This document shows positions 4,830 through 58,038 of a stretch of DNA of 64,000 nt, piece by piece (the first letter of the stretch is position 1; every line of letters begins with the position of its first letter). The stretch covers positions 9,961,989 to 10,025,988 of the forward strand of contig OZ020518.1 in NCBI GenBank assembly GCA_963971425.1, written 5' to 3'. Made by a program: the position numbers and the translations under genes. The notes beneath the pieces are model-generated. The model did not search any database. It saw only the letters and a program-made list of their open reading frames with translations, and had not been told where the DNA came from. The stretch comes from Bryoerythrophyllum caledonicum. Lineage: Eukaryota > Streptophyta > Bryopsida > Pottiales > Pottiaceae.

Positions 4830-4913
4830 CCCCGCTGTGAATGCAGAAACCCCACAGAGTCCTCCCGAAAGCAACCCTGCAAAGCCCACAGATCAAGACG
4901 TGCCCCAGAAGCC

Positions 4914-11396: not shown

Positions 11397-11611
11397 CCCC
11401 TAAAGTTCCTTGACAATTTCCCTCAAAAACTGTAAGTGGTACTAACTTTCAAACCACAAATCCAAAAAATAAAATAAAAATATGTTCACGAAGCTCTTAT
11501 CAAAGGCAATCTAGTATAAAAATTTCAGAGAAAAAGGATTTTTTTTCGAATTTTAGGAACCTGCCCAAAAATCAAGGAATCCCCCCGAAGGAGACTCTAG
11601 TCCTTTAGGGG
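11397..11611 (+). mobile_element. 215-bp TTAA-flanked MITE (family E)
   Basis: Starts CCCCTAAAGTTCCTTGAC after TTAA (11393-11396) and ends GTCCTTTAGGGG before TTAA (11612-11615). It has the same length as, and is nearly identical to, the element at 37681-37895, so the two are recent relatives. The TTAA duplication and CCC-start termini fit non-autonomous piggyBac-type elements. It shares both ends with the 1.1-kb element at 5465, so it is probably an internal-deletion derivative. Confidence 0.75.
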
Positions 11612-11615
11612 TTAA

Positions 11616-22800: not shown

Positions 22801-23625
22801 GGCGTACCTTTTCTTGTGGGACTACTGAAAGCAGGCGCCAGTCGACAATGTAAAGAAGCAGCCGTGGCGGCTCTGCTGACGCTGTCCTGCTTGGGCGACA
22901 ACAAGAAATGTATAGGCCTCTCGGGAGCAATCCCCCTGCTGGTACAGCTGCTGATCTCGGGCTCCAACCAGGGGCGGAAGGACGCACTGACCACTCTGTA
23001 CAATCTTTCCATAGAGTTTCAGAACCGCCCTCGCGTTGTGCGCGCCGGCGCAATCCCCATCCTGGTGCACCTCCTGAGCCTGCGCAAGGTGGATCTCCTG
23101 GAGAAAATCGTAGCTCTGCTCTACATCCTGGCCTCCATCGAGGAGGGGCGCGCCACCATTGCCAACACGGAGGGCGGCATAGCAGTGCTGGCCGAGATCC
23201 TTGATACCGGGAGTATGAAGGAGAAAGAGCACGCCGCGGCCACTCTCCTGCTGCTCTGCACCAACAGCATGCACCACAGCCAACTGGTGCTGCGTGAAGG
23301 CGTCATTCCTGCACTTGTGTCCCTCTCTGTTGGCAACAGCCCTCGCGCCCAAGACAAGGCCCAGAAACTCCTGCAACACTTCCGGGAGCAGCGCCAGAAC
23401 GAGGCGGGCCTCTCTCACTCCGCTCCTCTCAACATGAGCCTCAGCCTCGGCAAGGAGCCCTCTCGTGAACCCGAGCCTCAGCAGCAGCAGGAGCAGCAGG
23501 AATCGTCGCCTTCTCCAACGAACGCTGTGCGCAAGGACGAGAAGAAGAAGTTCGGGAAGTCCCGGTCGGGCTCTCTTGGATTCATCTGGAAGTCCAAAGT
23601 GCAACTCCCCCTCTACCAATGTTGA
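19824..23625 (+). CDS. U-box/ARM-repeat E3 ubiquitin ligase, PUB6/7/45 class, with a V-K-x-E repeat array
   Basis: Coding exons are 19824-19836, 20100-20365, 20574-20762, 20866-20973, 21133-22637 and 22773-23625. All have GT-AG sites, and they join in frame to about 977 aa. Residues 1-93 are rich in Ser-Pro (PRSVGSPR, repeated). About 94-260 is the U-box N-terminal helical domain (LYLAIKGESMLTRFEEVKEG). About 330-360 is a TPRTPRTPRTP run. About 362-436 is the U-box (LRCPISLQLMSEPVIVASGQ, TYERVCIEKWF). About 455-552 holds 12 copies of an 8-residue unit AVKVEQGE. About 612-900 are armadillo repeats (AVVAAGGVPFLVGLL, AIPLLVQLLISGSNQGRKDA). The tail ends FIWKSKVQLPLYQC, very like the conserved PUB45-class C-terminus. 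Known role of the family: transfer of ubiquitin from E2 to substrates bound by the ARM domain. The repeat array is not a usual part of this class. Confidence 0.9.
21926..22212 (+). repeat. 24-bp coding tandem repeat, 12 units (V-K-x-E array)
   Basis: Units of gtcaaggtggagcaaggcga plus four more bases repeat in frame. Eleven units encode VKVE and one encodes VKAE. The central units are identical at the DNA level, which implies recent expansion or homogenisation. Edge units vary (VVVKVEQDE, VVKVEQGK). The unit matches the hydrophobic-K-x-E consensus for SUMO attachment. Confidence 0.9.
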
Positions 23626-30331: not shown

Positions 30332-30476
30332 AACATGCAAAAAATGTATTAAAATTTAGCAAGACATACACCTTTGGATTGAAGATTCTTCAACAAACAT
30401 CTTTCATTTTGAGGTCATTTCAATATTTGAACCTTATCATGTTCAAATATGACACCATATTGCAACTTCTCAAGCA

Positions 30477-30612
30477 AATAGTAGAACGCATGACCATTTT
30501 GCAAATAGTAGAATGCATGACCATTTTGCAACTAGTAGAATGCATGACCATTTTGCAACTAGTAGAATGCATGACCATTTTGCAACTAGTAGAATGCATG
30601 ACCATTTTGCAA
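30477..30612 (+). repeat. 27-bp tandem array, about 5 units
   Basis: The unit agtagaatgcatgaccattt plus tgcaact repeats without spacers. It lies inside a family G element (left part with tttggattgaagattcttca at 30373). The 89-codon plus frame and 66-codon minus frame are products of the array. Confidence 0.75.
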
Positions 30613-31153
30613 CTTCTCAAGCAAATAGTAGGTGCAATAATGATCTAAATCATAATATGCTGTATTTAACTTTTTCCTGACTTTGCAAAGTCCAAAAATA
30701 AGGAAGAAAGATTTCAGTGTAGTAGAATAGTGGCACCAAAGAGATTGAATGGGATACACATAAAATTAATCTTAATCATTCAGCCGGATATCTCCGGATG
30801 ATTTCAGTCAAACGATACGAATTGATTACAGTGATAGAACCTTGCTCAAGGCGAAGTACGATATTATCGACAAAAATCCTACTGACTCGATTTTCTTCCC
30901 AGGGAGTTCTAAGGATTTGCAAGTGATTTTAGAGCAGGAGGCATTGACATGTCATGGATGCCGTTAAAAGAGCCGGAGATATCCGGTCGAAAACATTTGG
31001 TCATTTTTCAAAAACGAAATTGCTTTTTCGGAAGGGAATCCTTTTACAACACCATCACACACTTGATCAACTCTACGAGACAGCAATGACTGGTCTCAGT
31101 AAAACTCCTGGATGAAAGACCAATACTTATCCTGGCACTACCTCTGAAGACTT

Positions 31154-31591
31154 CTAAAGATCTTTCCAGTGCGCCGGCGCGTACATGTCCGAATCAACAT
31201 CAGACCATGTGTCACAACCAGTTTGAAATGGGCTGCAACCGCCCTCCGAAGAAGATTCCTCCTCGTCTTCATACCATGGGTCGTCCTCCTCCTCTTCTTC
31301 AACCGAAGCACCTCCGAAGATAGTCTCATCTTCATCAGAGTCGACCTCGTTCTCGTCCTCCGCTTCATAGTCGCTGCCGTCCTCTTCCTCTTGAACATAC
31401 TTCCTCTCAGCATCCTCCTCCAATTCGTCCCGAACACGCCGATTGGAACCTATCACCTTTGTGTACCCGACTTGAAATCGAAGCACTCGTCCCTTTTCCG
31501 AATCCTGAGCGTCGCTCACCATCCTTCGTGATACTCTCCTGTCTACTGAATCAGACTCTTCCCTCTCCCTCTTCCTACTTGCGAAAGCCAT
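31154..31591 (-). CDS. Small acidic protein of the palindrome element (145 aa), unknown family
   Basis: Single open frame from ATG at 31591. The N-terminus is basic (ASRKREREESDS), which could be a nuclear signal. Residues about 60-130 are very acidic (EEDGSDYEAEDENEVDSDED, then EEEEEDDPWYEDEEE). A TATA-like TATAAGAG lies on the minus strand at 31684-31677, about 90 bp upstream. Four or five palindromes lie further upstream at 32065-32470. I recognise no domain; the charge pattern is like histone-binding or transcription-activating tails. It may be an accessory protein or the tail of the neighbouring gene. Confidence 0.5.
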   Translation of the reverse strand: MAFASRKREREESDSVDRRVSRRMVSDAQDSEKGRVLRFQVGYTKVIGSNRRVRDELEEDAERKYVQEEEDGSDYEAEDENEVDSDEDETIFGGASVEEEEEDDPWYEDEEESSSEGGCSPFQTGCDTWSDVDSDMYAPAHWKDL

Positions 31592-31676
31592 CTCCTCTCT
31601 CTCAACCCTGGCTATGGACTAACAAAACTAACGAGTTGAAAGACAAAACACATGAATTGGTGCAGACCTGAACCCT

Positions 31677-31684
31677 CTCTTATA
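31677..31684 (-). promoter_or_regulatory. TATA-like box of the acidic-protein gene
   Basis: TATAAGAG on the minus strand, at a distance from the ATG (31591) that suits a compact promoter. Supported by sequence and position only. Confidence 0.4.
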
Positions 31685-32064
31685 CTATCCTCCCTACCCA
31701 CCCATTAATAACAGTTCTCGAGCGTAGGTAAACGAAGAGTCATTGATTTAAGTCGCCATAATACCGAGACTGATAGAAATAAAGGTAGATGCCACAGACA
31801 CGAATGACGAACATGGTAGGCCACGCGTCAAGCGTGCTGTCGTAACGTGATGTGGGAAGTACAATCTCCGCCGCCAACCATTAGCATCACTTCAATGATA
31901 AGAAGGTCCTCGTACAACTGATATGAAGTGTGTAATTGACCGAGCATTTTCAACTTAGTTGTGGCATGTCATAAATCTAAGAAGGAACCAACCACGGGAA
32001 TAACCAAAAGGATACATTGTTGAAAGTTCCATCGTAAGATAAAATGCAGTATCGTAGTCACAAA

Positions 32065-32470
32065 AGATCTCCGGATATGATTCAATACTATTCAGAACAC
32101 CAAGGTAAGCTCAAAATTGGGAAATATGGACCCCATTGTTGAGAATGGGGGATGTGAATCTCCTACTCAGAGATCTCCGGCTAGATCTCACCGACTTAAA
32201 CATGGCAATATATGAGCATCCTTACGTCCATAAAATATAACTTCCATAGCCGGAGATCTCCGATAAGCTTTCGGAGAGCCGTGAGGGTCCAAATATATAC
32301 TGCTGGCATAATCTAGTGAACAGTAATACTGTCACTCCTCAATGTACCCAAATTACAGTGAATGGAAGAGCACACTTTCGGTCCTCTTCACAATGACTGG
32401 CGAGAGCTGAAAGGATGGATGTCAAACTCGGGCCCAGATAATAATCGCCTTTACAGCCGGAGATCTCAGG
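32065..32470. promoter_or_regulatory. Palindrome cluster upstream of the acidic-protein gene
   Basis: Four copies or half-copies at 32065, 32171, 32250 and 32457. Two keep only the AGATCTCCGG half. The 76-codon plus frame at 32362-32592 crosses one of them and has no coding character. Confidence 0.6.
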
Positions 32471-32658
32471 TGCTCTTCCGTGTGGACGTAGCAACTCTAC
32501 GAGATTTTTCACAAAGAGAATTTCACAGAACTAATTTAAACATAGAGGGACAGATCAACGTATCAGGGATCAGCGGCATTCGCTTTCTCTAAGTTCACAA
32601 GCGCTGCTTCTTTCATTTTCCATGGAATGGTCCTCATTAGTTGGTTAGCTTTGCTTGA

Positions 32659-35600
32659 CTAGATCGCAAACAACACGGAACTAATATGACACCAAACAAG
32701 CTTCTCTTGGTCCGCAACCCAAGTGGCTTCCCAACAGTCCTGGTACTTCCTCTTCAGATTCTTCTGCTTGTTATCAGGCTCCCAATACTTAACGAGGAAT
32801 TTCCCGTAGTTGGCATTACCATCTTCCCTGACGACCTCCGAAACTACTCTTCCCTGCCAGACATGATAGATGTTAGGATCACTAGGTCTTACTAAAACCC
32901 AGGAGCCATGACGAATGTCACGCCAAGGATGAAAAGTGGACTTTGGGGCTTCATTAGCGGGTCCGCAGTAAGGCTCAAGCATCTCATCCTCGGGAGTGAC
33001 ATCCTCTGGTTGTGGAAGCAATCCTAGCGGATTTTCACCTCCCTCATGAGGGCCTCTCCAATCATGGGCAGGCCAGAATCCCTCTTCGAGTTCGGAAGGC
33101 GTCTGGGGAAGTGGCTTGTCTAGCTCGTCGATGACATCCTTCCAGTACTGCAGGTACGGGCGGATGGAGTCCGCGTACCCTACGCACTTAGTCATTCCGG
33201 ACGCCCAATAGTCAACGTACTTCCGAAGCTTCGTCTTTATAAAGTTCTTGTTCTCCGTCGCTTTCCTGGCCTTGTCTCTGGCAACATCTTGGTTTCCAAC
33301 AGGGCTCTACTCCTCATTACCCCATATAGGCTTGAAAGGAACGGGCTTGGGAGATCATGTTGGAAGCATGGGACGTCCGAAGTCATCTACCTTCCAAAGT
33401 TTTATCGGCTCTCTGTTCATGGGTAACCACTCTGCATCAACGGCAGATTTTTTGAACTTCATGACCGGAACACCGTCATTGTCAACGTAGAATTTGAAAC
33501 GATGCATATCACTTAGTCCCACCAGACGTGCCGCCCCGCTGCATAGATAGCCATCGACGTACGATTTGAAGTAGGCCACCTCTTGGATAACTTCCGGCAT
33601 GAAGGCTAGTTTCTGTGACTTCATGAATGCCTTCATAAAATCCGCTAGAATATATGTACTGTTTTTCTTCAGTTCTTTCGATAGATGGCTAAAGTATGCA
33701 TCAATATCTTCATGCGTATGTCCGACCACCAAGAAGCCAACCTGTATCTCCTTGAAAACACCTCGAGCAGTTAGCAGTGATAAGAATGCCATCAAGTATT
33801 GGTTCTTGTTGTCCTTCGCTGAGTTGTCAAGCTGTAGAAACAATTTCGGTATCAAAGGTTTCGGTCCCTTAAAAGCACTCGACTCCACGGGCTCCAAAGC
33901 GTCGACGCACTTGCTCTTTCCCCTCATGAGCGTCGCGAACATGGAGTTTGGAGGAGGGTGCTCGAAGAGCGCGCGCGTCTCATGTAAAGGTGCTCCCTCA
34001 AGCCGCCAAAAAAGTTTTGCCAGAGAGGAGATGGTGGCATTCGAATCTCCAGGCCATAATGCAGGAGCATAGTAAGCATACGCTCCGTCGACATGACCGT
34101 GTGCCACCATTCCAGTGACATTCATGGGAAGCTGTCTGAGACCAGATGTCGCCTTAGTAGTCCTCCACATGTGTGGAAGGGCCGTCTTCGCAGTGTCCAT
34201 CTTGTCGTGAATGACACAAAAAAAGGTCAGCGGCTTCGCCTTCGACTCATCTCTCCATGTCGCATTAAGCTTTCGGCAAGATTGCTGGTGATTCAAGTGA
34301 GCCTGCCTGTTGCAATAGAATAGCTCGTAAGCAAGCGTTCCCTTTGGAGTCGTCAGTAAGAACTGATTGAATTCATCGCAAGTACTGCATTTTGTGAAGG
34401 TGCTTCCAGATGGCTTCATAGCAACATTCCCGAAGAATTCCTTTCTAACCCTACTAACTGTGGACTGACTTACAGGAAGGAGACCGTAGGAGTCGTTTGT
34501 CTGCAAGATGAAATAATTACCCAGTGAGAAGAGAATTTCAGAAGAACAATCCAACAGACAGTGCAAAATACAGAGTAAAGCAATTGAAGGTCAATGCATG
34601 TCAACAATGACACAGCGAGAGATCTCCGGTTCAGAAACTAGGACTTCGGTCGACTGAAGAAAGAGAGTTCTAATCCATAGCATTATGTAGGGACTGATAA
34701 CGTACAGCATTGACGCTCGCTCGAATTTGCTTCGAGTTGTTTCCCGCAGGAAGATACTTGAGAGTGTCAATCCGACCATTCCCGACACTGCGCATTTGGT
34801 GAGGCATTTGATCCGCATTGTCATTAATAATCGACGTCATTGACTCCATCGCTTGTATAGTGGCAAGCCGTGGGCGCTTGATGCCCTTGTTACCGTGAGT
34901 TGCATTGATGATTCCTCTACTGAAATGTGCGATGTACGAGTGAAACGTGGACTTCCGAATTCCATGGATCCTGTACCATGCAACGGAGCAGACCTCCGTC
35001 CCCAATAAAGTGACGTACTTTCTCTTCCGGTCCCCGTCAATGGAGTGAAATTGACCGCCTATCGAGATCGCATGCTCCTTTCGGTCTTCAAAGGATTTGT
35101 CATAGAATTTCTGTCTAACAGAAAGAGTCTGGGATTGTTGAAAATATTGGCAGCATCGTCTGGGACAACACCTTTCCGAGCTGACTTTGCGAATTTCGTC
35201 ATCCATAGTCCTCTTGGTATACAAAGATTCCTCCTTGTTGAGGTCTTGCTGTCGGGAAATGAAGCGGTAAGGCTCCTTTGCACGACCCCCCAAATAAGCA
35301 CCAGAATCAGGTTGTAATGGCAGGGATGCGAAATGATCGATTGTGCTTTTCAAAAACCGCCCGGAAGGAAAACAACATTCAAGAATGGGCCACGATTCAT
35401 GACTCATAATTCTCTCCGTGTCCCCCACGAAAACGTCGAGGACAGTTACACCAATGTTATCTTCTCCCAAGCATCCACTACGGAAATCATCCGCTGGAAA
35501 CGCGGCCATGATTCTTCTAGAACAGAGTACCAACATATTCTTGTCCAACCGCTGCACTTCAAGTCCAACCCATCGCTCTCGTGGTACGAAAGGGGACTCG

Positions 35601-36019
35601 TCGGATCGGAGATCTCCGGTTGGAATCTTGACATCCACCCTTCTCCACAGGACCGTCCGCCGAAGGGTGTGAACAAGTGAACCGTATCCGCATTGCAAAG
35701 GTATGAGTGGAAATTCTGCCGCCAGGGACGTTATGGACGTTGGTCTCAATAATACGTACTCACTGGAACCGACTCGAATGTCAACTCCAAGCCATTGACC
35801 GACGGGGTGAACCTCGACAATTGACGCTTCTCCAATTTCGCCTAAACCTGGCCTCATAAGGTTCACGGACATTCCTGACCACAAAACCTCCGACCTTCCA
35901 GTAGACTCTTCGGATGGATCATCATCTTTGATGTAATCCACTGGTCCAAAATTGGGGCACTGAGCTGCGACCATGGCAAGATCGTCCGAGTCACTCTCCC
36001 ACCAATCAGAGTCAGACAT
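32659..36019 (-). CDS. DUF7869-family transposase-like protein, one intron, two internal nonsense codons
   Basis: ATG at 36019. Exon 1 runs to 34706 (438 codons). The intron is 34705-34501, with GTACGT donor, TTGCAG acceptor and one palindrome inside. Exon 2 starts at 34500 and stays in one frame to a stop at 32659, broken by TGA (33357-33355) and TAG (33309-33307). N-terminal part: acidic start and a beta-rich segment. A cysteine cluster ERCCPRRCCQYF and GTEVCSVAWYRIHGI follow, as is usual before DUF7869. Core motifs: FCVIHDKMDTAK (about 34200), LQLDNSAKDNKNQYLMAFL (33801-33840) and GHTHEDIDAYFSHL (33690-33726); these look like an RNase H-type D, D, D/E set, which I infer. The C-terminal part after the stops (WVLVRPSDPNIYHVWQGRVV) resembles a small beta-barrel reader. 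Both stops could arise from CGA and CAG by C-to-T. Confidence 0.7.
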
Positions 36020-36133
36020 TCTCCCGGCCACCGTCGGTGGATGTTCGGCTGGTGGCCGATGGCCTAAAGAAGTGAATGAGTGGACGTGGATTCGAACTGA
36101 ATAATCAAGGTCAAATTCGTAGGGTGTGTCCAG

Positions 36134-36430
36134 CCAGAAATCTCCGGATGACTAGATAATGATCAATAACGACGACTACTTGTGTAAGTGAGGATGAGAA
36201 GGGTGAAGCTAGAAGTTCTATTCGTATCTAACTGGAGATCTCCGGTTAATCCGAACCAGGCTGCCGTGATATCTTTCAATGGTCATTTCGCACTTGAATA
36301 GCCGGAGATCTCCGGGAACCTTGGGCTCGTATAATGGGACAACCAGATGTTTTTGGGATAGTTGCCGTGGTCTGCAAGCGAGCATGGCCGAATCCAAACT
36401 ATCACGGCTAGAACAGCCGGAGATCTCCGG
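36134..36430. promoter_or_regulatory. Palindrome cluster 5' of the DUF7869-type gene
   Basis: Four copies at 36134, 36232, 36302 and 36417, spaced 98, 70 and 115 bp apart and starting 115 bp upstream of the ATG. The last two are exact CCGGAGATCTCCGG. The position suits regulatory or transposase-binding sites; function is inferred. Confidence 0.65.
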
Positions 36431-37476
36431 ATTGCTTTAATGTTGTCATCGAAACATCTGCCGTACGGAATATTCAAGGGTGTGGCAGAAAGATTCAGTC
36501 ACCAATCTCTGAGAACTGTTCGGATTCACACCCCGATCAGTCACATCATCTTACTTCTCGAGTCGAAATATATTAGGCGCTCGGGATTTGATTGTATATA
36601 ATGAAACAATTTAGTTACTGAATCACTACACGACAGCTCCCGATCGACTTTAAGGGCAGAATGAAACACAATCTACACCAATCCTCTCAAATTGAATGCG
36701 GATACGGAATTTTATGAGAAAACAAACCTATTACTCCTGGAATACTGTCAAATTGTTTCCCTGCAGAATTCTAGCACCCAAACACTCTCACTGACTAGCT
36801 CCGCTCCCACAGTATCCCAAACCTCTAGAGCAAAAAATGATGAGAGCTAAGTTGAAGGATACTCTTATCAACCTCCTCATCACCTCCTGGTGGGAAAATT
36901 CAGGCGCTCAAATTTGAAACGAATCTTGGGCATGCATACTCTATCATAGTAACTGTTGTACACCATCATGATAGTGCACATTCTTCGACGTGCCCACGAC
37001 CGAGGCCACATTCCACTCATGATAAATGAAAGGCTTGTACTCTTGGGATGACCGTATTGTAAGGAATCCATCTAGTTCCCAGAGTGCCGCAAATTAGAAA
37101 ACGGAAGATGAAGTATGCCCTATGGTGTACCTTTGTGTTTACTAGGGCCGTATCACGTCATGGACTAAGTCACAGTATAATGTAATCGTATTAAACTTCT
37201 CGTACCCACCATTGTAAATGAAATTATACCCTACCCATGGAAAACAGTCGGCCTACTAGTATTGTTCAACTGGCACTACAGGACACAAGTAGAACGTCGA
37301 CATTCATTATCAATTTGAATTGTCTCCAAAATTTCCTAATTCGACAGAAGCTATTTGTTTGCTTTTGAAGATACGTGCAGAAATATATAACTGACCAGAT
37401 GCTTTTAGAAGTACAGCAACCTGGTTCTATGAATTCGGGTACAGCTTCCGTGGTAAGGCTGGATTGTGCATCATGG
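36431..37476. other. Central spacer of the palindrome element, no gene seen
   Basis: AT-rich, without palindromes and without frames of interest. It may belong to the element or to later insertions. Confidence 0.3.
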
Positions 37477-37535
37477 TTTAGGGTTTAGGGTTTAAAGTTT
37501 AGGGTTCACTGTTTAGGGTTTAGGGTTTAGGGTTT
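37477..37535 (+). repeat. Interstitial telomere-like repeat
   Basis: About seven units of TTTAGGG with two degenerate units in the middle, followed by eroded variants to about 37600. It lies inside the central spacer of the palindrome element. Confidence 0.75.
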
Positions 37536-37680
37536 CTACTTCACGGTTTGGGGTTGAAGGTTAAGATTTCAGGGTTCACGGTTCACTGTGGAAGGTTCTG
37601 GGTTAATGAAGGTCGAGGGCTTATATCACCTTTAAATCTATAAATTAAAATTATTTTGATACTATGAACTATAACCTTAA

Positions 37681-37895
37681 CCCCTAAAGTTCCTTGACAA
37701 TTTCCCTCAAAAACTATAAGTGGTACTAACTTTCAAACCACAAATCCAAAAAATAAAATAAAAATATGTCCACGAAGCTCTTATCAAAGGCAATCTAGCT
37801 TAAAAATTTCAAAGAAAATTGATTTTTTTTCGAATTTTAGGAACCTGCCCAAAAATCAAGGAATCCCCCCGAAGGAGACTCTGGTCCTTTAGAGG
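37681..37895 (+). mobile_element. 215-bp TTAA-flanked MITE (family E)
   Basis: TTAA at 37677-37680 and 37896-37899. Same 215-bp length as the copy at 11397 and nearly identical in sequence. It inserted into the central spacer of the palindrome element. Confidence 0.75.
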
Positions 37896-38049
37896 TTAAA
37901 TTTATCGATAACTATAACTTAAAAAAAATTGGATACAATAGCGTGTGAGGAAATTTAGAGATAATTGAACTATAACTATTTAAGACTTTGATACATTATA
38001 ATTTAGTTAGAGGGAGAATAAAGAAGAGAGGGAGGATAATGGATTTAAT

Positions 38050-38340
38050 TTTAGAGTAGACTAGCTGTTGGCGCTTGCTTTGCAATGCATTAGCCCAACC
38101 ATTTTAATGTATTTTTAATATTTAAAAATACTAAAAAATGAAAGGTGGAATGATTTACTATACTGTTGACACCGCGGTTCACTGTAGCGTATTTGTAGTT
38201 CACAGCATGATTGACTACGCGATAGTTCACTTTGTGGTTTATTGCGCAAATTATGATTTTAGTAGTATGGCTAGGAGTTGGCGCTTGCTTTGCAATGCAT
38301 GAGTTCAACCATTAATGTAGTTTTAATATCACAAAATATT
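38050..38340 (+). repeat. Two direct copies of a 60-bp unit
   Basis: The word ggcgcttgctttgcaatgca occurs near 38071 and 38280, each followed by a similar aaccatt..aatgta..tttaatat stretch. The 210-bp spacing suggests a short tandem duplication. Confidence 0.55.
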
Positions 38341-38459
38341 TAAGAAGAAAGGTAACAACAATGTATATATCTCTTTGAAACCTATGCATGATTTAATAAT
38401 GTAATAGAATAGAATAGAAAAAATAATTATACTATTACAATAGTACAATATTATTAACC

Positions 38460-39255
38460 AAGGATGGATATTGAGTAGGAGGGGAAAGTAAAAGTAAAAT
38501 AAATTAAAATCAAGGGAGAGGGAGAGTAAGGGAAGGAGAGTAATGGAGAAGGAGAGTAAGGGAGGGAGAGACTTGAGGGATTCATTTTTAGAGTAGTTTA
38601 TATTTTTAGAGTATGTAACAAGGGGAATATAAAAAAAATCAAAATTAGAAGAGAGATGGAGAGGGAGAGTAAGGAAGTGAGGGAGAATAAGGGATAGGGA
38701 GAGTAGAGAGGGAGTGTAAGGAAGGGAGGGAGAGTAAGCGAGGAAGAGTGCAGGATTGTTTTTTAGAGTAGTTATTTAATTTTAGAATGTGAATTTATTG
38801 AAAGAAGGGAAATCCAAAAAAATAAAATTCAAAAGGAAAATAGAGATGGAGATGGAGAAGGAGAGGAGAGTAAAAGTATAATAAATTAAAAACAAGTAGG
38901 AGGGAGAGTAAGGGAGGGAGAGTAAGGAAGAGAGGGAGAGTAAGGGAGGGATTTATTTTTAGAGTATGTAATAAGGGGAATCTAAAAAGAAAATCAAATG
39001 TAAAAAAGAGATGTGGAGGGAGAGTAAGGGAGAGGAAGAGTAAGAGAGAGAGAGAGTGCGAGATTTATTTTTAGAGTAGTAGGTTAATTTAAGAATGTGT
39101 AATTATTGAAATCACGGGGAGTCTAAAAATCATTAGAATCAAGATTAAAAATGAGATGGAGATGGAGAAGGAGGGGAGAGTAAAACATAAATAAGAAAAA
39201 CAAGTGAGGGAAAGAAGGGAGGGAGAGTAACGGAGAGGGAGATTAAGGTTTTTCA
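38460..39255 (+). repeat. Purine-rich low-complexity tract
   Basis: Long runs of gggagagtaagggaggga-type sequence with irregular 100-200-bp higher-order units; each unit also has a tttttagagta motif. Four to five irregular units are visible. No coding potential. Confidence 0.65.
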
Positions 39256-40302
39256 CCTATGACGTTTTAAATTCAAGTATAATGATTACTCTAATACCCG
39301 GCGAACCTGAGTATCTACTGTAGTCATATGTAATACCCAGGAAACCGGGTATCAATACGTCTTGTCACGCATGCTCACGACATTGACAATGTCATGATTG
39401 TGAAATGTACACGTTGTATAAGTACGTGACTAGAGCTAATTTTTTAGTTCACCCACTGTCATCATGAGCCGTCACACCCTTGAGCCGTCCAGCTTGTCCT
39501 TTTTGGATTAGGGGAACTCGAAGCATCAAACTGTTCTTGTTTTATATGGGTTCTGTCTTTGTAATGTCGTAGGTAGTGAGCGGAAGTGGCCGGAGGGGTT
39601 TTTTTCGTGGTTTGAGCAATAGGCGTCAACGCATTAGGTTTGGGCGGTGTGCGCTGTGAGAGGCTGTCGGTGTGCGAGGTGAGTGTTGATATAAGTGAGG
39701 GACATTGAGCATATCGTCGAGAGGTTGTTTCTAGATATAGCTTGAAGGTCGGAGAGCAGGACTGGAACAGAGCGATTGAAATAGGCATTTAAATTTAGCG
39801 AGCGCCTTGGTTCACCAGCGAAGCGGAAATGACGTTGCGGTTGAGGGTGGCGTCTTTACGAACGACCACGACGAACGAGTGCGCCGATTCGGCCAGTGAA
39901 GAGGTATATAGTGTCTCAAAGTTTAAAATTCAGTGTCATCAAGTATCATAGTTGCCCAGGACTGCTTAGAATCGGCGCTGGGACAGCTGTAGGGTTCGGT
40001 AAGCGCCATTAGGGTTCAAGAGAGTCGAGTAATTCTGATGTTGTTAGACGTTTAAGCGGAATTGTAGGGCTTAGGGTATAGGGTTCTGGTGTTCTGTGCA
40101 TTCAGTTCAGATGGTCTGTAAATGAGCATGTTATGGAGTGTTGAAATTTATTTCGCGGAAATCTTGTCAATCTGATCTGGACCTTAAATTCTAGGGCATC
40201 TGAGAAATTGTAGAGTTTGTGAAGCTGAGTTGTTGAATGTTGATGTTATTCAGAGCTGTGAACTCGCTTTGATCCCGAGCAGTTCCTCGAGGAGGTTGAA
40301 AA
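39256..40302 (+). promoter_or_regulatory. Probable promoter/leader of the plus-strand element gene
   Basis: Contains a TATA-like word (tgtataagtacgtgac, 39414-39429) and GC-richer sequence from 39830. A possible leader donor is agag|gtatat (39902). No palindromes. The minus frame at 39462-39788 has no family features. Confidence 0.3.
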
Positions 40303-43300
40303 ATGGCGACTGGAGCTGGAACGTCGTGTGAGACTTCATGGGAAGGAGACCGGTAAGTACACAACATTGAACTGTTTACGCTGTGTCCGAGTGACCATGT
40401 GTGGATTCATTACTTGAGTGTGATTCGAATTTGTTCTTTTGATTCCGAGCGGGTGTATGACAATGAGGAACACTTGAAGTCTTGAATAATGAAGAGAAAC
40501 CTCAGAAGTTGAGTACTAGAATTCAGATGTCTGTTAGGCTATAGTCGATTGATTTTTTGTTGTCCCCTGAACAGAAGTGTGTTTCAATTCATGTATATGC
40601 GTGTGATTATGGTATTGTACGAACGTTTGAATGTGCTTATCCATACTGAGTCTTTCGAGTCCGGTCCGATTCAATTTAAGAAGAGTAATCCATGTACAAA
40701 CGTCACATTTGGCGTTCCATCGAAACATTTGCAGATTCAATTTTCTGTGTGAAGGTCGGTTTTTAAAAGCATTGTGTGAGCATTTGGTACGTTTCTTTCT
40801 GTTTTCTATTTTGAAACATGTATTTTAAGTATGTCAAACCTCCAGAGTAGAATGTCAAACTTCTCTGTGAATGATTGTGAATATACGCGTGATGGTCAGT
40901 AGCGACTAGTGCATTGTAATGCCGTACTTGGTGCAGCCGGAGATCTCTGGTTATATCCCGAATGGAATACGGAGTTCCAATAATGAGCCGGAGGTCTCGG
41001 GATAATGTCGAGGTCTAATGAGTCGTAAAATATAAATCCACGATTTAGTAAATCTCGAAAATAGCCGGAGATCTCCGAACGTTACGAAGCAATGCATTTA
41101 CGCGCGGATGAAGATGTGAATATCGTGAAACTCTTCATTGTGGTCATCATCCGGAGATCTCCGGTTCATGACAGAAATGGATCCGTCTGATCCGCACCGA
41201 ATCGTTCCTGAACGGATGCACTCGACGTGCACAAATCAGCCGGAGATCTCCAGATACTTTCGCGATGGTATTGAACCAAAACGAACCCCATTGCTGTTTA
41301 AAATCCGAAATAGAGCTGGAGATCTCGGGACGTTTCAAGTAAGTTTTGATACCCCCTCACGACGACTACAGATCTTGCCTGTCGAACCGGAGATCTCCGG
41401 CTGAGCGCATGCAAGATACTTCAAGCGATTTGAGATCATTCGAGTGTCTGTAGATATGATAAATGTGCGAAGACCTCCCCTTGCTGGGGCAATGTTAAAT
41501 TGATTTAGAAGCTCGTTTTAAGGATTCCATCCCTAGGAATACATCCGGTTTTGAGTGACGGACTCCCCATAGATTACCGGTTAATTGCAGTGATTTCTAA
41601 CTGCGTTTGTGTTCATTCGATATCATCTTGCAGGGATTCGTGGACATCCATACTTCCGACTGAATGTCGTCCCCAGAAACTTACGGCGTTTGTAGAGTTC
41701 TGGCTCCCTGAGTATGTCTATAGAGGGATTCACAATGTTGGCTACGTCTACAAATGCCGACAGAGCATTAGCCAGTGGGGAATGAAGCTCGAGAAAACCC
41801 CTAAAGTTGCCTGGAAATTCGTCCCCCAACTTCGGATTGGCAAACAAGGACACCCCGACATTGGACTTGAGGTACTGGAGATGCAGGGTCTTGATGACAA
41901 GGTCTGCCTCCTTGTCGTCCAGGAGAACGTGGACTCATCCACCGAGCCTCTCATATACGGCTTGATCCTGGAGACATCTAAGATTTCGGATGCGATGTCG
42001 GAGACATGTCAGAATGAGAACTTCCTATATGGTCCAGCCACGAATGATACCTGGATGCCGGAGTACGTTAATGAGCAGTGGAAGTGGATGACAGAAGCAC
42101 AAGAGAAGTCCCGAAAGCCCGTTCCAGACCCGACTCCCATTCTGTCTCTGACTCCAGAATCAACCCCGGGAAGAAAACACAAGACCACCTTGAAAACTTC
42201 GACCCTAGGTTCCTCGTCGCGGGCGGAGAAGGGAAAGAAAGCGAAGACCAATGAGCCTGGCCTCGCGATCGAACAGTGCTTGAACTTCACACAGGCTGAC
42301 CTCGCCAAAATGAAGCGGACTGAAGTTGAAGCAAGTGGCAAGGTTCTGGACGACGCGTTCAAAAACATTTACATACTCAAGAATAAGCCTTTGATAGTAG
42401 AAGATCCCGTCACGAAGAAGGATGTCGTCAAGCTCGTTCATTTCAATAACCTGCACAGGGCCCCCCGTGGAGGATTAGTGTACAGGGGCATCCAGAAAGA
42501 ACGGCTCAAAGGAATCATCAATGCAGTTCGGGCGTCCTCGAAGGCCACAGCACCTGAGATTCACATTTGAGTCTTGCCACTGAAGAAGAAACCTGAAGGA
42601 AGTAAGGTGGAGTTTTTCGCGACAAAGCCGACGAAGGAGGACTGCCTAAGGGACTCGACACACTTTTACATTATTGGTGGTCAGCTTACTGTGGAGGCGC
42701 ACATGGTTTTGTCACACGAATTGCCATCAACGTGGACGCTGGAAGAGATCTCCCACTTCTCCATCATCCCAGTTTGGACAAAACCGGACCCCGAAGACAT
42801 GACCCTGCTACAACTCTCGCGAGCTCTCAACCAAGATCTGACGGGTCTGCGGAAGGAGTAGAGTTTTACAGAGCAGCTGCAAACGTGCAGAGTGAAGTGG
42901 TTTGAGTTCGGAAAATTTGCCCCCCAACTCTATGGTCGTCCACAATCTGACGAATTCTCGGTAAACTTAGATTATCCGCCTCAATAAATTTCAATAAAAT
43001 CAATGCGCTCATTCTTCATAGCAACCAATCCAATCTACCGGAGATCTCCGGGTGCTCACACACTGAATTTTATATTATTGCAGACGTTCCAACAGCAAGT
43101 GGTACCGACAGTTTTCACTCACCTCGGCAAAACTGACCCAAAAGACGCGAAGGTCCCTCTTCTATTCGAGATGGATGACGCGGTGATTCAGAAGTGGATC
43201 CGAATCGATAGGATGTTTGTCGCTGGACTCCTACCAGACTCGAACGGGAAGACGGGCGATTCAGCTAAGCTGAAGCAGAAACCTCTGGTGCAGAACAACT

Positions 43301-45810
43301 TCAAGCCACTCTACAAAATGCGCGCTGAAGACCTGGACTACCTCGCGGAGTTAGTGCTCGCGAAGAAGGTCTGTGTGAAGTCGTCCAAAGCGGCGAACCA
43401 AGGTACTATGAAAGGGCAGGCCGAGACTCTCGAAAACGCGGCGAACAGGGAGAAGAGAATCCGGGCAATGAAGAATGAACTGATGTTGCATTACAAGTCG
43501 CACCCCCTTCCCTCGAAGGCTGCTGATTTCGTCCCTTATACAAAGGAGCAGTGGGACGCCTTTGTGGAAGAGTGGCATATTGGACGGGCTCAACTCGAGT
43601 CTTAGGTGGACGCCACTAATCATTCCGCCAAGGGTAAAACTTGGCTTGAGGGTCGACTGAAGGCGATTAATAAGGAGACTGACCCCACCCCAGACGTCCT
43701 TGTGTCCATTTGGAGTCAACACATCGTTGAAGATGTTGCGGAGGCCACACCCACGGATGACACGTCCATGTTCGACTCCAAATACACCTACAGGGTTATG
43801 CTAGAGAGAGGGGGCGAGATCGCCGAAGTACTTATCATGCCGGACATTCAGGAGTGGCGTAACGTCAATGACCCTCACTTTTACTTCTTTTCCCTCTATC
43901 GCGTGAAAGACGACATATGCCGTGCACAGGTCCTCGATGCGTTGGACTTCAGAACCATTTTCGACCATCTGGAAGTGGACACGAAGGACGGGAAGACGAG
44001 GGTCAGATCACCGTCCGTTCTTATCACCAATGTCGCGGGATTCGTTGAATTGAAGAGGTACATCAGTCTTCGGCAGAGAGAGTCTAGGGGCAAGGTGAAA
44101 TTGTGGGCGACGCATGTGGTCTACTACTTCCCCCACCCAGGTGATTGATTTCCGACCCCAGTAATCGGGGTCGAGGAGGCAGTGTACTGTGTATTCCTGT
44201 ATGAATACGACTTGAGCGAGACGCCTGCTCAGTCATTCAAGAGGCTCTTCAAAGTCCACCCGGACAAAATGCTGGCCTTCTTTTCAGCTGCTCAACATCA
44301 AGAAACCATCCAGCGTTGGAAGCAAACCGGTGTCCCACAGCTGAGGATCTCGGTCCTCGATTTGCTGTTCACGGGGTTCATCAGAGAGGGTATGGTGGTC
44401 GTCAATGTCCATGGTGGACCACATTTAACATACCTCGGCTTGGTAAGCAGGACATCCTTCCCAAGCACTTCAACGTCAAAGATTTTTGGTCCACATTCAG
44501 TTATATGTTTTGGATGACGCCTTACGCAGGTTTTTTCTTGCAGACTCACGATGCGCGGGTCCTCGAGATTGTGAACAGCGAAGATGCCAAACTCAAGGCA
44601 GAATCCTGCACAGAAGAAATATTCAAGTACCACTTGAATATCTTAGCCGACGTACCCGACGCCGTTGCCGAAGAGGCACAAGAGACTGCCATCACTGGAT
44701 CAACCCCTGGCGTTGGTGTTCTAACACGGGCAATGTCGAGGATGAACTACACCGGCGAGGTATAACGCCTAAGAAAACTACATGACCCGGAGATCTCCGG
44801 CTGTTCATACGTTTAGGATGCCCTCCATATTTTAGGGCTCTTCTTTCTCATGGCCTTGCTCAGTTTTAGTTCGCCCGGTAGACATGAATTACTTTGAACC
44901 GAAGATCTCCGGGTGTATGATACCGTATTCTTTTGTATTGCATCCTAATGTTTTTCACACTGACTTTGTCAATGTGACGCAGACGCCTCATGCCACGATG
45001 ATTGAAGTTAATATGCGATATGAACCGAGTTCATCAGCGGCACCCAACATTGGACTCCAGTCCATGGCCACAGTCGCGCGGATCCTCGCTGCGGGCACCC
45101 CAATCGACCCCATACAGGTAAACGTTGATGAACCACCTCTTTCTATCAGGCAAGCCTTGCCTAGTTCAACAACCAACTCTACTCCGGACGCTAGACTGGG
45201 TAGCTCTCAAAAGGAAACCAGTTGGCATTCCGGAATGCCACGTTCTCCTCCGATAGATTTGGAAGATGACACGGCAATGTCCGATCGCCTGGACTTCGAC
45301 GACACCCATAGAGCACCCGGAGATCTTCTGCTGGACGACCCTTCGAGGACGCGTCCTGAAGTGGAGGTTGTGTTCAAGAGTGCCGAGGACTTGACGTTGC
45401 GTGACACCGATCAAACGATGGATGAGGCATCGGCGCAACAGACATTACGTGAATTACATGCTATTAGCCCACTGCGCAGCCCTCCGCGGAGCCACGGGCA
45501 GCTGGCTCAAAAAGAGAAGAAAAAAGCAATCGCGAAGAATCCTGCGTCGAAAGTTCCTCCTCCACCACCTACAATTTGGACAAGGGCCCAGAAAGATAAG
45601 GTGAATAGTTACTTGTCCATCAAACCTTCTTCATTATTCTAAGAACAGTTCACTCGATGCAGACCGTATTCTTACCACTTCATTACTAGTATTCAGGGGT
45701 CGGCAGGATCAACACAGTCGAAGGAAGTCGGTGACAGAAACCTCGCACAGACTGCTCAAGTCGCTGGTGTAGCTTAGACTTCTAGGGATACTCCACCTTC
45801 TATTCCAGGT
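40303..45810 (+). pseudogene. Large multi-exon gene of the palindrome element, unknown family, interrupted
   Basis: Exon 1, 40303-40352 (ATG in aaaATGGCG, donor GTAAGT), joins in frame to exon 2, 41634-42960 (acceptor cttgcag). Exon 3 is 43084-44759, exon 4 is 44983-45600, and exon 5 starts at 45697. All introns have GT-AG ends. In-frame stops occur at 42568 (TGA), 42859 (TAG), 43603 (TAG), 44146 (TGA) and 45775 (TAG), and a frame change near 44430. Because the frame stays open on both sides of each stop, I read one gene of about 1,300 codons that has decayed. Residues near 42400-42730 read LVYRGIQKERLKGIINAVR then HFYIIGGQLTVEAHMVL, which loosely fits a ParB/Srx-type fold (inference only). 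The exon 4 product is low-complexity and acidic with a PPPPPTIW run. Introns 1, 2 and 3 carry the palindromes. Confidence 0.5.
40937..41400. promoter_or_regulatory. Dense palindrome cluster in intron 1 of the plus-strand gene
   Basis: Seven copies start at 40937, 40988, 41065, 41151, 41240, 41316 and 41387, spaced 51-89 bp apart. Two are exact (41151, 41387). This is the densest cluster in the window and the most regular in spacing. Confidence 0.75.
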
Positions 45811-46027
45811 GCCTAATATGTACATTCATACTTACGTGCCATCATCTATATAGTGCTCATTCTTCCATCGAGCATTTCAGGATTGTCAGTGTGGAACACT
45901 TCAATATTTGTAATTGTAATTTCTCTGTGCTGAACAACGTCCTCATCTCAGTCTACGTTCTCGTATTTTGGGTTCAAGTCCGACGAAGCTTACTACGTTC
46001 GTCCGAGAGCCTCCAACCGAGGATTAG

Positions 46028-46651
46028 GTAACATCAAATCGGGTTTATCATGTCGTGTTTGACTTAAATGGAGTTCTTGTGCACAGGGGGGAATTTAAAC
46101 AGGGACAACCGAGAGACATCAAAGTAAGGATTGGTTCCACTGAACTCCTAAACTTCGTGGGAGAGAAGGCTACTGTCTCATTCTGGAGCAGTGTGGTGGA
46201 AAAAAATATTGTGGATATTATCAAGGAGTTGCGCAAGAAAGGTGCTGTCATTCCGGAAGGCGTCACAGTCCTGACGCAGGCCCATTGCACAAAAACATCA
46301 TATACGCTCCCATCCCATCCAAAGAAGCCAATTTTCCTTAAGGACCTAACAGTTTATAACACCAAGGCGTGGTCCAGGTCTCCCAAGGATGTCTTGCTTG
46401 TGGACGATACCCCACTAAAGAACGTCCTTAACGATCCCTTCAGCATAGTTCATCCGCCATCATGGACTGGGAATTCGAATGAAACCTGGTTGACCACCAT
46501 TTTTCTCCCATGGCTCTCCGGTCTGCTAGCGTCAAATGAGGATGTTCCCGACTTTGTTAGACGGAATCCATTGATATTTGCCACTGATCCGGTAGACAAA
46601 AATTCCTCTGAGGCCCGCTCCGTTGTGAAGGGCATAATTCCGGCGCCTTAG
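46028..46651 (+). CDS. FCP1/NLI-interacting-factor-like HAD domain exon
   Basis: Open from a likely acceptor (gattag, 46027) to TAG at 46649. It begins VTSNRVYHVVFDLNGVLVHR. The FDLNGVL motif corresponds to the DxDxT catalytic motif of FCP1-type phosphatases, with Asn in place of the second Asp, as in many plant FCP1-like proteins. Further family landmarks are ATVSFWSSVVEKNIVDII, VTVLTQAHCTKT and DVLLVDDTPLKNVLND, which carries the late acidic pair. With the Asn substitution, catalytic activity is doubtful; it may bind phosphoserine/threonine peptides. It could be a separate gene or a 3' exon of the gene upstream; I could not settle this. Confidence 0.6.
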   Translation, partial: VTSNRVYHVVFDLNGVLVHRGEFKQGQPRDIKVRIGSTELLNFVGEKATVSFWSSVVEKNIVDIIKELRKKGAVIPEGVTVLTQAHCTKTSYTLPSHPKKPIFLKDLTVYNTKAWSRSPKDVLLVDDTPLKNVLNDPFSIVHPPSWTGNSNETWLTTIFLPWLSGLLASNEDVPDFVRRNPLIFATDPVDKNSSEARSVVKGIIPAP

Positions 46652-47002
46652 AACAATGAAATATACTGGATATTATAAACTCTATGCTTTGTAAATATTA
46701 AGTCAGGAATGTCTGTGGGATTTCGACCTTTCAATTTTGAAGATAAATGTTGTTGTCAGTAACTTTATTTGTTGAGGTCCTTCTTTTAATTTGTTATTGT
46801 TAGTGTCTCGCCCCCAAACTTTACCTTCTAATATCTGTGAACACTATTGAGTATTCTCCTGACCATTTCGATTGCGGAACGTGGTCTGGGAGGGGCACCC
46901 GGAGATCTCCGGTCGAGGATGTCACATGAAATCCTCCTACCATATTTTCTCTTCGTTTCAATGTTCAATTTCTAATTCTATGGTCGTGCCATCTTATTCG
47001 CA

Positions 47003-47456
47003 GGTCATAATCATATCTCTTTGCGGTCCTCTCTGCTCGGACGAGGTCCTTGACTCGGCCAAGTCCCGCTCCGCGCAGCTGCCTTCCTTTGATGACACGG
47101 TAGATGTTATTCGAATACTACTGCGGTATTTCAATGTCGGGATCTGGTCTCCTATGCGTCCAGATAGGCTCATGGAGGCGGCCCAAGTGTTGTTGCCCCC
47201 AGACATCTTATCAGATATTCTTTTTTGCTATGCCAGCAAACAGACTCGAAGGCCTAGCTATGTTAGGTTTCTCCACATCTTCAAGAAGGCCTCATTTAAT
47301 CCTAGAACTAGGCATTATTTGTGGCCTAAATGTATTGTTGTTGCAGATCTAGATCCATTCAAGAATCCTAGAAAGGCTATAGTCCATTATCTAACATATG
47401 GGAGACACCATACAGGACGAGTAGAGGGCATCTGTAAAGCACTTAAATTAGAATAG
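47003..47456 (+). CDS. Second, diverged FCP1-like exon of the palindrome element
   Basis: Starts after an acceptor (ttattcgcag, 47002) and ends with TAG at 47454. The upstream intron carries an exact palindrome at 46899. DVIRILLRYFNVGIWSPMRP and CIVVADLDPFKNPRKAIVHY align with the FNVGIWSS and LLDDSPYKA regions of FCP1-like domains. The DxDxT region would have to be on another exon and is not seen. It is probably the end of a gene, with FCP1-like similarity moderate. Confidence 0.4.
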
Positions 47457-48271
47457 TTGAATCGATTCTCCGTAGATTACACACGCCTCTTAGCAACGGC
47501 CACTCTTTATATATTGTTTGACACCTTTTTATAATGAAACAGTTTTGTACTGAACTCTTACTCTTATTTCATCCGGAGATATCCGATTGCCTGTTCTATC
47601 AATTGCGAGTAATTTATGTCCGCATCTCTGTCCCATTTTTCCCTACCACATGTTTCCCAACCACACATTTGTGATGTACATTATGTCCATCAATTTCTGT
47701 TTTCAGAAGTGGGTTCTTCTTCTGGTTTCCACTTTGATATTCACCCGGAGATATCCGGCTGCATGTTGTGGACTCTTGTATTGTCTAAATTCAAATTTGG
47801 TCGCTCTAGCCATTTCTTCCTTCATAAGTGTCATTGGCGATGCATTTAATGCTTGAAAAGTACTCTAAACTCCTCAACTTCTATGCTTCACTATCTTTTA
47901 TGAGGCACATCTCCGGATCTTTCTTTTAGTCCTTAGTCCAGAATTCACCTCATAGTCTAGAAATAGTTGAGTTCGGCATTAATTGTTATGTGTCATTGGA
48001 TTGGGCTGAACGCAAATACAAACTCTTGTAGTTGTAGTATACATTAATTCCTACACCTCGTATGCTAAATACACACAAAACATCATGCTACAATCCAAAT
48101 GTGGCTTCTCAGACCTTCAAGGATTAAAGAGGAGCCAACCCAAACTCGACAGCCATAGCTATTTTTGGAGAGTAGCAATAGATGCCTTGCCTGAGAGTTG
48201 TCCTATTTCGCTTTTTCCAAAATTTGATTTTGGTTGGCTGAATTAAACTTTGGTTGTATACAATTAAGCCA
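47457..48271. other. Right flank of the palindrome element
   Basis: Palindromes at 47573, 47745 and 47907 (half). After 47920 none is found. I searched by eye for inverted similarity to 30.64-30.78 kb and saw none. No gene is seen. Confidence 0.4.
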
Positions 48272-56607: not shown

Positions 56608-58038
56608 TTGTTTATTGAAATTTCAGCACTATGGAGGAAGAAGCTTGTGGTGATGATGGTCTTGTATTGGTGTTTCTACATGATTATGCAGCATGTTAAC
56701 AACATGCAAGCTTTGATTTTACAAGGTGAGTGGACGAATGTTGCAATTTTCAGCATTTGCCTTCAAAGTTTAGGATTTAGAGATCGAACCATTTGGAGTG
56801 TTGAGAGGCAATCTGGCTTTGTAGACCGGTATTTGTTGGGTTCATTTACGGAGAACATGTTCAAGGAAAGGACCCGTGTCTCGCATGCTACATTCAGATT
56901 TTTATGTGAGAAACTAGGTCCGTTTTTGAAAAAACAACAAACTCGTTTGAGAAGACCAATTTCTGTAGAAGAGAGAGTTGCAATGTCTTTAGCTGGACTT
57001 GGTACAGGAGATGGGTTGCGTATGGTTGGAGAAGTGTATGGAGTTGCGGAATGTACAATTTCAGGAATTGTGAGGGAATTTTCTAAAATGGTTAGACTAC
57101 ATTTGCAAAAGATTTTCATTCAAATTCCAAATGAAAACAAACTTAGAGTTTTGGCTAAAGAGTTTGAGAGGTTGCATAATATACCTTACATTATAGGAGC
57201 CATAGATGGTTCACACATTCCTGTGCTAGCTCCAGTTATTGGTGGAGAGGATTACTACTGCCGCAAATCTTTTCATTCAGCTATGTTGCAAGGAATTGTT
57301 GATACAAATTGCATTTTTTGGGATTACGAGTTTGGGTGGGCGGGAAGCTTGCATGATTGGACTGTTTTTCAACAAACCAAGGTTGGAAGAGCTTGTATGG
57401 AAGGGAAATTCCTACCATACAAATTGATTGGAGATGCGGCGTATCCGGTGCGGCCTTCGATGTATTGTCCATTCAAAGGTACTTATGATGGACTGGAATC
57501 TTACAAGGCACATTGGAATTTTATCCAATCTTCAACGCGAATGTGTGTGGAGCGTGCATTCGGGATTTTGAAGGGCAGATGGAGAATAATTCAAAAGAGA
57601 GCGGATGCTCCTTTACGATCAATGGCAAATATTGTGTCAACTTGTATTGTCTTGCATAATTTATGCATCATCACGAAGGACAAGTTTGATGCAATATGGA
57701 TTGAAGAAGCCAAGGTTGAATTGAAGAAACGGTTTGAAGATGGCACGGTGAAGGGAGGGCAAGTCCTACGAGGGCAACGAGCTTCTATTGAAGAGGTAAA
57801 ACCTCGGATTTTGAAATCTGGTATAAAAAGAACATTTCAGAATTATGAGATAGAAGAAGTAGATGCAGAAGAGGAAGCTTTTTTGATAAAACAAGATGAA
57901 AAAGATGTTGATTTATTGAGAGAAGCTACTATGGCTTATGAATCCATTGCAAAAACTTTGTGGGAATACAATTTGTCAAAGGAGTCGACTATTCAATTTT
58001 CAGAATCAAGTAGTGATTATGAAGCTATGGAAGAATAG
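56608..58038 (+). CDS. PIF/Harbinger transposase (HARBI1-like, DDE)
   Basis: 476 codons without a stop. Catalytic residues by position are D200 (IIGAIDGSHIP), D276 (LIGDAAYPV) and E315 (RMCVERAFGILKGRWR). A helix-turn-helix-like region lies at about 120-160 (EERVAMSLAGLGTGDGLRMV). C-terminal residues 390-476 are charged. The first 50 residues are doubtful: another frame from ATG at 56630 (MEEEACGDDG) looks more like a native start and would need an intron or frame change near 56690. Known role: cuts and joins element ends at TWA targets with help of the Myb/SANT-like partner. The stop codon abuts the partner gene's stop. Confidence 0.9.
   Translation: MFIEISALWRKKLVVMMVLYWCFYMIMQHVNNMQALILQGEWTNVAIFSICLQSLGFRDRTIWSVERQSGFVDRYLLGSFTENMFKERTRVSHATFRFLCEKLGPFLKKQQTRLRRPISVEERVAMSLAGLGTGDGLRMVGEVYGVAECTISGIVREFSKMVRLHLQKIFIQIPNENKLRVLAKEFERLHNIPYIIGAIDGSHIPVLAPVIGGEDYYCRKSFHSAMLQGIVDTNCIFWDYEFGWAGSLHDWTVFQQTKVGRACMEGKFLPYKLIGDAAYPVRPSMYCPFKGTYDGLESYKAHWNFIQSSTRMCVERAFGILKGRWRIIQKRADAPLRSMANIVSTCIVLHNLCIITKDKFDAIWIEEAKVELKKRFEDGTVKGGQVLRGQRASIEEVKPRILKSGIKRTFQNYEIEEVDAEEEAFLIKQDEKDVDLLREATMAYESIAKTLWEYNLSKESTIQFSESSSDYEAMEE

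Follow-up and report, generated by a model that had tools for sequence, protein, structure and literature searches.

Palindromic sites throughout a DUF7869 DNA transposon of Bryoerythrophyllum caledonicum as predicted binding sites of an element-encoded protein

Introduction

The DNA analysed here, a stretch of 64,000 nucleotides from Bryoerythrophyllum caledonicum (assembly GCA_963971425.1, contig OZ020518.1, positions 9,961,989 to 10,025,988; hereafter, the window), contains a 17-kb unit in which a 14-bp palindrome, CCGGAGATCTCCGG, recurs many times, raising the question of what these sites do and which protein would recognise them. This unit, a decayed copy, belongs to a multi-copy DNA transposon family. 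It carries a gene specifying a DUF7869 transposase-like domain (gene A), a gene whose product belongs to no recognised family (gene B), a gene with an NLI-interacting-factor (NIF; FCP1-like) phosphatase domain (gene C), and two small open reading frames (ORFs), namely one for a very acidic protein and one designated ORF D (Table 1). We consider it fairly probable that the palindromes are binding sites, as predicted from their anatomy, of a transposon-encoded protein that binds DNA as a dimer, likely with an anti-silencing effect similar to that of the VANC proteins of VANDAL transposons.

Results and discussion

At up to three mismatches, CCGGAGATCTCCGG matches the window at 27 places, 26 within 30784–47758 and one at 60176, compared with a mean of 1.0 and a maximum of 4 in 100 dinucleotide-preserving shuffles of the window. 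The original prediction, a note made from the letters of the window, had counted about 27 copies at 30784–47916, seven of them exact, and none in the other 47 kb. The window search returned the same seven exact copies, and the total nearly agrees, the 27th copy probably being a half site with four mismatches at 47903–47916. Outside the unit there is indeed no strong match, but the match at 60176, with three mismatches, has to be added.

The motif extends to an 18-bp dyad, ANCCGGAGATCTCCGGNT, in which A is found at position -1 in 23 of the 26 sites and T at position +16 in 19, and the positions between these two bases and the 14-mer are unspecified. This longer form has 26 window matches at up to three mismatches, 25 of them inside the unit (0.16 expected). 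Read outward, the half site is TCTC-CGG-N-T-G. In a census of all 10-bp palindromes, the cores of this family and of the second family described below are the commonest besides AT runs (GGAGATCTCC, 12–17 times; TGAGATCTCA, six times). The unspecified positions inside the dyad have the appearance of a protein footprint, not of copied sequence. Because of these positions, and because the sites were not embedded in any repeat that self-comparison could reveal at E 1e-3, an origin of the sites by simple duplication of longer segments was rejected. A link to IMG/VR sequences was also rejected: the palindrome is present in at least 120 IMG/VR stretches, and these occurrences were regarded as unrelated because it is found once in each of the 80 listed. 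The 14-mer was not found in the literature searched, among the listed matches to the 14-mer or its inner 10-mer.

Under our gene models, 24 of the 26 sites are noncoding (P 8e-6, the coding fraction being 0.49), in agreement with the earlier remark that copies are rare in exons; the exonic ones are at 35606 in gene A and 45317 in gene B. At least five site-bearing introns had been claimed, of which four are certain, i.e. one in gene A and three in gene B, and a fifth, before ORF D, is possible. Since palindromes are spread across the whole unit, they could also be imagined as insulator, chromatin-boundary or partition-like sites, or as acting in RNA through splicing or hairpins. We regard all of these as very improbable: the sites at the ends and in promoters do not fit a role in RNA, for which a loopless 14-bp palindrome would, by reasoning, form a poor hairpin, and the segregation-like protein that the original prediction had entertained is unsupported, no ParB-like protein having been found among ten ORFs scanned with Pfam.

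Ends of the element

The ends of the unit (30657 and 47979) were suggested by an empty site and then fixed by alignment with other copies. A host repeat at 54.7–55.1 kb, on the other strand, matches the left flank (30339–30645) and the right flank (from 47981) without the unit and is, to judge from this match, a paralogous empty site. Alignment with four other genomic copies (c1–c4) begins at window positions 30647–30657. The right end was compared with c1 and c2, which reach 47979–47980 (the sequence of c4 is covered in part only), and c3 stops at 47906. Target-site duplications (TSDs) of 4 bp are present in all five copies of this first family that were read at both ends, i.e. TAAT in the window, CCTA in c1, TTGT in c2, and CAAT and TTAA in two copies on C2. 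The terminal inverted repeats (TIRs) of the window copy, about 29 bp in length, are weak when taken alone (p 0.01–0.03), and those of the two C2 copies are identical at 28 of 29 positions. The TIRs start with ATGC; the intact left form is ATGCTGTATTTAACTATTTCTGGACTTTG, and the intact pattern has 342 assembly matches at up to three mismatches, some of which are right ends, compared with 0 for the control. The copies are located at different places and have TSDs. The unit is a DNA transposon, at which the original prediction had only hinted.

Both outermost sites at either end have a GATATC-type core, which is found in none of the 22 inner sites, and three of these four outermost sites share a longer flank in inverted orientation, with two exact 17-bp matches in self-comparison. 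These features would suit binding by the DUF7869 transposase, in which case the sites, both internal and subterminal, would act like enhancers and be required for the element to transpose; the gene A product is moreover the best-conserved protein of the element and resembles a DDE enzyme. Most sites, however, are in promoters and introns at a distance from the termini, and gene A has changed less than gene B between the two families described below although the motif has changed, so that we consider transposase binding an unlikely explanation. If the sites are bound mainly by another element-encoded dimer, the terminal pairs with a GATATC-type core may additionally be used by the transposase.

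Sites in other genomic copies

The assembly searched comprises 437 Mb in 894 contigs. CCGGAGATCTCCGG occurs in it at 4841 places at up to one mismatch, compared with 58 for the reversed pattern, and among the matches listed, from the first 6.79 Mb of contig C1, all 50 exact places are inside four element copies (16 in c1, 16 in c2, 11 in c3, and 7 in c4). The original prediction had asked whether the palindrome is spread evenly over the genome; a clustered distribution was seen as far as this check extended, which was in part. Each of 28 further first-family gene A loci (L134–L161) has six sites at up to three mismatches, and so does each of five more places from divergent subfamilies. The size of the cluster in gene B intron 1 varies between copies, with five sites in c1 and c2, six in c3, and seven in the window.

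In alignments of 4–10 copies, pairwise diversity is lower at the sites than in their neighbours in all five regions, significantly so in four (0.052 vs 0.211, 0.054 vs 0.303, 0.052 vs 0.138, and 0.021 vs 0.095; P ≤0.007) and with values of 0.099 vs 0.156 in the fifth (P 0.12), where it should be borne in mind for all regions that neighbour diversity may be inflated where indels hinder alignment. When 29 gene A regions were aligned separately, five of six sites again proved less variable than the sequence beside them. The symmetry of the dyad, the scarcity of sites in exons, and their low diversity together point to a DNA-binding dimer, and thus lend support to the earlier suggestion that the palindromes may be binding sites for a protein of the unit itself, or chromatin-marking sites.

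A comparison of 28 copies showed C-to-T changes to be 2.6–2.9 times as frequent at CG and CHG as A/T transitions (rates per 1000: 20–22 at CG/CHG, 13 at CHH, and 8 at A/T). The raised CG/CHG values fit what would be expected if the copies were methylated in the past, in which case there would have been something for an anti-silencing protein to counter.

A sister element with another palindrome

At two more distant gene A places (C439 and C522), the first motif is absent but for weak matches; in the sister-element loci it has three mismatches at best, except for one site with two. The C439 element spans 23846–45406 (21.6 kb) and has 28-bp TIRs that are identical between the ends at 27 of 28 positions; an identical 4-bp TSD was not found at these ends. 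Gene A, gene B exons 2–3, and the NIF gene have the same order and orientation as in the window. This element contains a different palindrome, ATCGTGAGATCTCACGAT, in 35 copies at up to four mismatches, and 20 first-order resamplings of 15 kb of the element, with 22 of the sites, gave 0–1 matches. Around gene A, seven copies are upstream, one is in exon 1, one in the intron, and three at the 3' side; around gene B, nine are upstream of exon 2, in the presumed intron 1, and two in intron 2; the other 12 are located toward the other end, four of them at exact 108-bp steps. Mappable exons hold one of the 35 copies (P 6e-5), which lies in gene A exon 1 at the coding position equal to window position 35606. 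The half site of this second family, read outward, is TC[T/C]C-N-CGAT-G, and ATCGTGAGATCTCACGAT is absent at up to three mismatches from the window and from loci L125, L126, and L136.

Between the families, identity is 55–57% for gene A, 44 and 29% in two parts of the NIF protein, and 28–41% (exon 2) and 34% (exon 3) for gene B, which is the least alike of the genes that can be aligned. That each family has its private motif, and that the motif changes from one family to the other, points to an element-encoded protein, which adds to the support for the original suggestion of an own-protein binding site. A host transcription factor exploited for element expression might instead recognise the sites, their concentration in 5' regions and introns being in keeping with such a role, and if the sister element is in another organism, divergence of that factor could account for the different palindrome. 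We nonetheless judge this quite improbable, as confinement of the motif to element copies, among the matches listed and with a weak other match in the window (60176), is unusual for a host factor, and sites are also present at the ends, outside genes.

Candidate binding proteins and the proposed role

In the reading that we prefer, a dimeric protein from the transposon itself would bind the palindromes, and some 25 occupied sites in promoters, introns, and subterminal regions would allow it to mark its own family and no other. Most likely, host silencing would thereby be countered, so that the noncoding DNA of the element stays open and is expressed, in the way that VANC acts for VANDAL. As the binder, the gene B protein is the leading candidate and the DUF7869 transposase the second, and the acidic ORF and ORF D are also possible; this ranking is a weak one, gene B being placed first because it is the least alike of the alignable genes, by a thin margin over NIF. 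We infer all three parts of this reading, i.e. a self-encoded binder, gene B as that binder, and the counteraction of silencing.

Several observations weigh against it. No recognisable DNA-binding domain was found in gene B by Pfam scans, and the choice of this gene is a weak one, since NIF has diverged almost as far and no match to the acidic ORF, to ORF D, or to gene B exons 4–5 was found in the C439 element. Of the six sites in the 29-region alignment, the exon site in gene A is as variable as its flanks or more so. There is also an excess of C-to-T changes at CHH, at 1.7 times A/T, and the observed/expected ratio of CpG (CpG o/e) is about 0.9 in the element, a mild depletion, compared with 0.47–0.64 in the flanks; strong long-term methylation is therefore not evident. 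The high CpG o/e of the unit may result either from youth or from protection. As the signs of methylation are mixed, the anti-silencing effect is proposed by analogy. Finally, the second motif has 41 exact places, all of them on high-numbered contigs and none on C1–C15, and two of the contigs with this motif are 27 and 59 kb in length; at one mismatch the motif has 69 places, and five of the nine listed are on C2 and C7. The high-numbered contigs could be pieces of this genome that were left unplaced, or they, and with them the sister element, could stem from another organism present in the sample. In the latter case, the switch would still show a motif that changes with the element lineage, yet would be no argument against a host factor.

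Gene content and decay

The DUF7869 protein of gene A is a putative DDE transposase, and the predicted structure of a relative is RNase-H-like; fold matches of the C-terminal part (537–646) to BAH domains were tied with matches to MazF folds and were not used. DUF7869 has no mention in the literature searched. In the window copy, gene A exon 2 contains three in-frame stops (33355, 33307, and 32659), and gene B contains four before the TAG taken as the gene end. The three gene A stops, with no frameshift relative to P0001, raised the idea of recoded sense codons, which was rejected because relatives carry G, Q, and W at the stop positions and 14 of the best 67 gene A places are stop-free. In the gene A copies listed, TAG predominates among the in-frame stops (about 45, by hand count), with seven TGA, and most of the TAA rows seem to come from intron sequence preceding the exon. 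The split is less one-sided in the 29 aligned gene A regions, so that shared descent may explain the excess of TAG.

Homologue searches found none with gene B exon 2 and two with exon 3. The acidic ORF has no Pfam family above the cut-off, and no counterpart of this ORF or of ORF D was found in the sister element. The transposon-borne FCP1-like phosphatase domain (46028–46651) is also kept in the sister element and could possibly be a handle on RNA polymerase II. A viral or prokaryotic origin was rejected, since the DUF7869 protein and gene B exon 3 had no relatives in viral_contigs and genome_contigs, and phage records gave two chance-level matches.

Features of the unit and its surroundings

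The features of the transposon copy are collected in Table 1. The repeat nested in the central spacer is 96% identical to window positions 11393–11615, and the alignments of c1–c4 break there, from which this insertion appears to be younger than the transposon. The spacer also contains a short telomere-like TTTAGGG run (37480–37540). Elsewhere in the window, a Harbinger-type DDE transposase ORF is present at 56608–58035 (DDE_Tnp_4, E 2.8e-26), and a U-box gene, which we take to have ARM repeats, is located at 21106–23625 and includes a run of about ten KVEQGEAV repeats. The TTTAGGG repeats, the U-box/ARM-type gene, and relatives in the liverwort Riccia are all in keeping with a plant source.

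Table 1. Features of the transposon copy, in window coordinates
Feature	Position	Strand	Basis
TSD TAAT, left	30653..30656		alignment with other copies
Whole transposon copy, about 17.3 kb, decayed	30657..47979		empty site and copy alignment
Left TIR	30657..30685	+	TIR search, copy alignment
Two left subterminal palindromes (30784, 30973), GATATC-type core	30784..30986		motif search
Small ORF, very acidic 145-aa protein	31154..31591	-	76% identical in copy c1
Four palindromes between acidic ORF and gene A 3' end	32061..32470		motif search
Gene A exon 2, DUF7869 (PF25273) transposase-like domain	32563..34500	-	Pfam
Palindrome in gene A intron	34616..34629		motif search and gene model
Gene A exon 1, 438 aa, no stop; palindrome at 35606	34706..36019	-	gene model
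Four palindromes 5' of gene A	36134..36430		motif search
Central spacer without sites; nested host repeat at about 37681-37895, GA-rich repeats	36431..40302		self-comparison, copy alignment
Gene B, six exons (40303-40352, 41634-42960, 43084-44442, 44544-44759, 44983-45600, 45697-45777), product of no recognised family	40303..45777	+	gene model
Seven palindromes in gene B intron 1	40937..41400		motif search and gene model
Palindrome in gene B intron 2	43038..43051		motif search and gene model
Two palindromes in gene B intron 4	44787..44912		motif search and gene model
Weak palindrome, two mismatches, in gene B exon 5	45317..45330		motif search
Gene C, NIF (FCP1-like) phosphatase domain	46028..46651	+	PF03031, E = 4.4e-13
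Palindrome just 5' of ORF D	46899..46912		motif search
ORF D, 150 aa, no known family	47004..47456	+	ORF list, Pfam
Two right subterminal palindromes (47573, 47745), AGATATC core	47573..47758		motif search
Right TIR	47951..47979	-	TIR search, copy alignment
TSD TAAT, right	47980..47983		alignment with other copies

Comparison with known transposon systems

In the En/Spm element of the CACTA group, the element-encoded protein TnpA binds to many short sites and has a role in overcoming methylation. The element described here resembles En/Spm in its many short sites and in the element-encoded binder that we propose. CACTA elements, however, have TIRs that start with CACTA and a 3-bp TSD, and the Spm sites are subterminal, whereas the TIRs here start with ATGC, the TSD is 4 bp, and the sites are not just subterminal; membership in this group was rejected on TIR start and TSD length. 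Transposons of the Sola superfamily have a 4-bp TSD and a DDD/E transposase; the present element shares the TSD length and could belong to this superfamily.

VANDAL elements have a MULE transposase and a TSD of about 9 bp, and their VANC proteins, which contain DUF1985, bind the family motif and remove DNA methylation. The present element differs from them in its DUF7869 transposase and 4-bp TSD, in having an 18-bp palindrome that is mostly not arranged in one-orientation tandem arrays, and in its accessory proteins, which show no DUF1985: at E values up to 0.5–1, nothing like this domain was found in gene B (exons 2, 3, and 5), in gene C, or in either of the small ORFs. VANC21 sites in VANDAL21 are reported to lie in introns, intergenic regions, and terminal noncoding regions, and VANC6 targets have other motifs (PMC5735166). 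The likeness to VANDAL21/VANC21 of Arabidopsis lies in many copies of a short motif in the noncoding parts of one family, with other motifs in other families (PMC5735166, PMC10398659). It also lies in motif-bearing segments that differ between copies, here seen in intron 1 clusters of five to seven sites and in the 108-bp steps of the sister element. As far as anatomy goes, the element appears to work like VANDAL/VANC; it is not a member of that group, because the transposase and TSD differ and a VANC-type domain was not found.

Self-labelling by private sites for an anti-silencing protein is, to our knowledge, known from one group only, the VANDALs of Arabidopsis. We tentatively raise the possibility that the DUF7869 lineage has a second, independently evolved sequence-specific anti-silencing system, in which protein and motif, including the site in the coding region, change together between families. 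If so, self-recognition through private anti-silencing sites would have evolved repeatedly, in an unrelated transposon, and a context for DUF7869 would follow. Two families with different codes at the same places would then be natural pairs of protein and site from which to learn how DNA-binding specificity changes.

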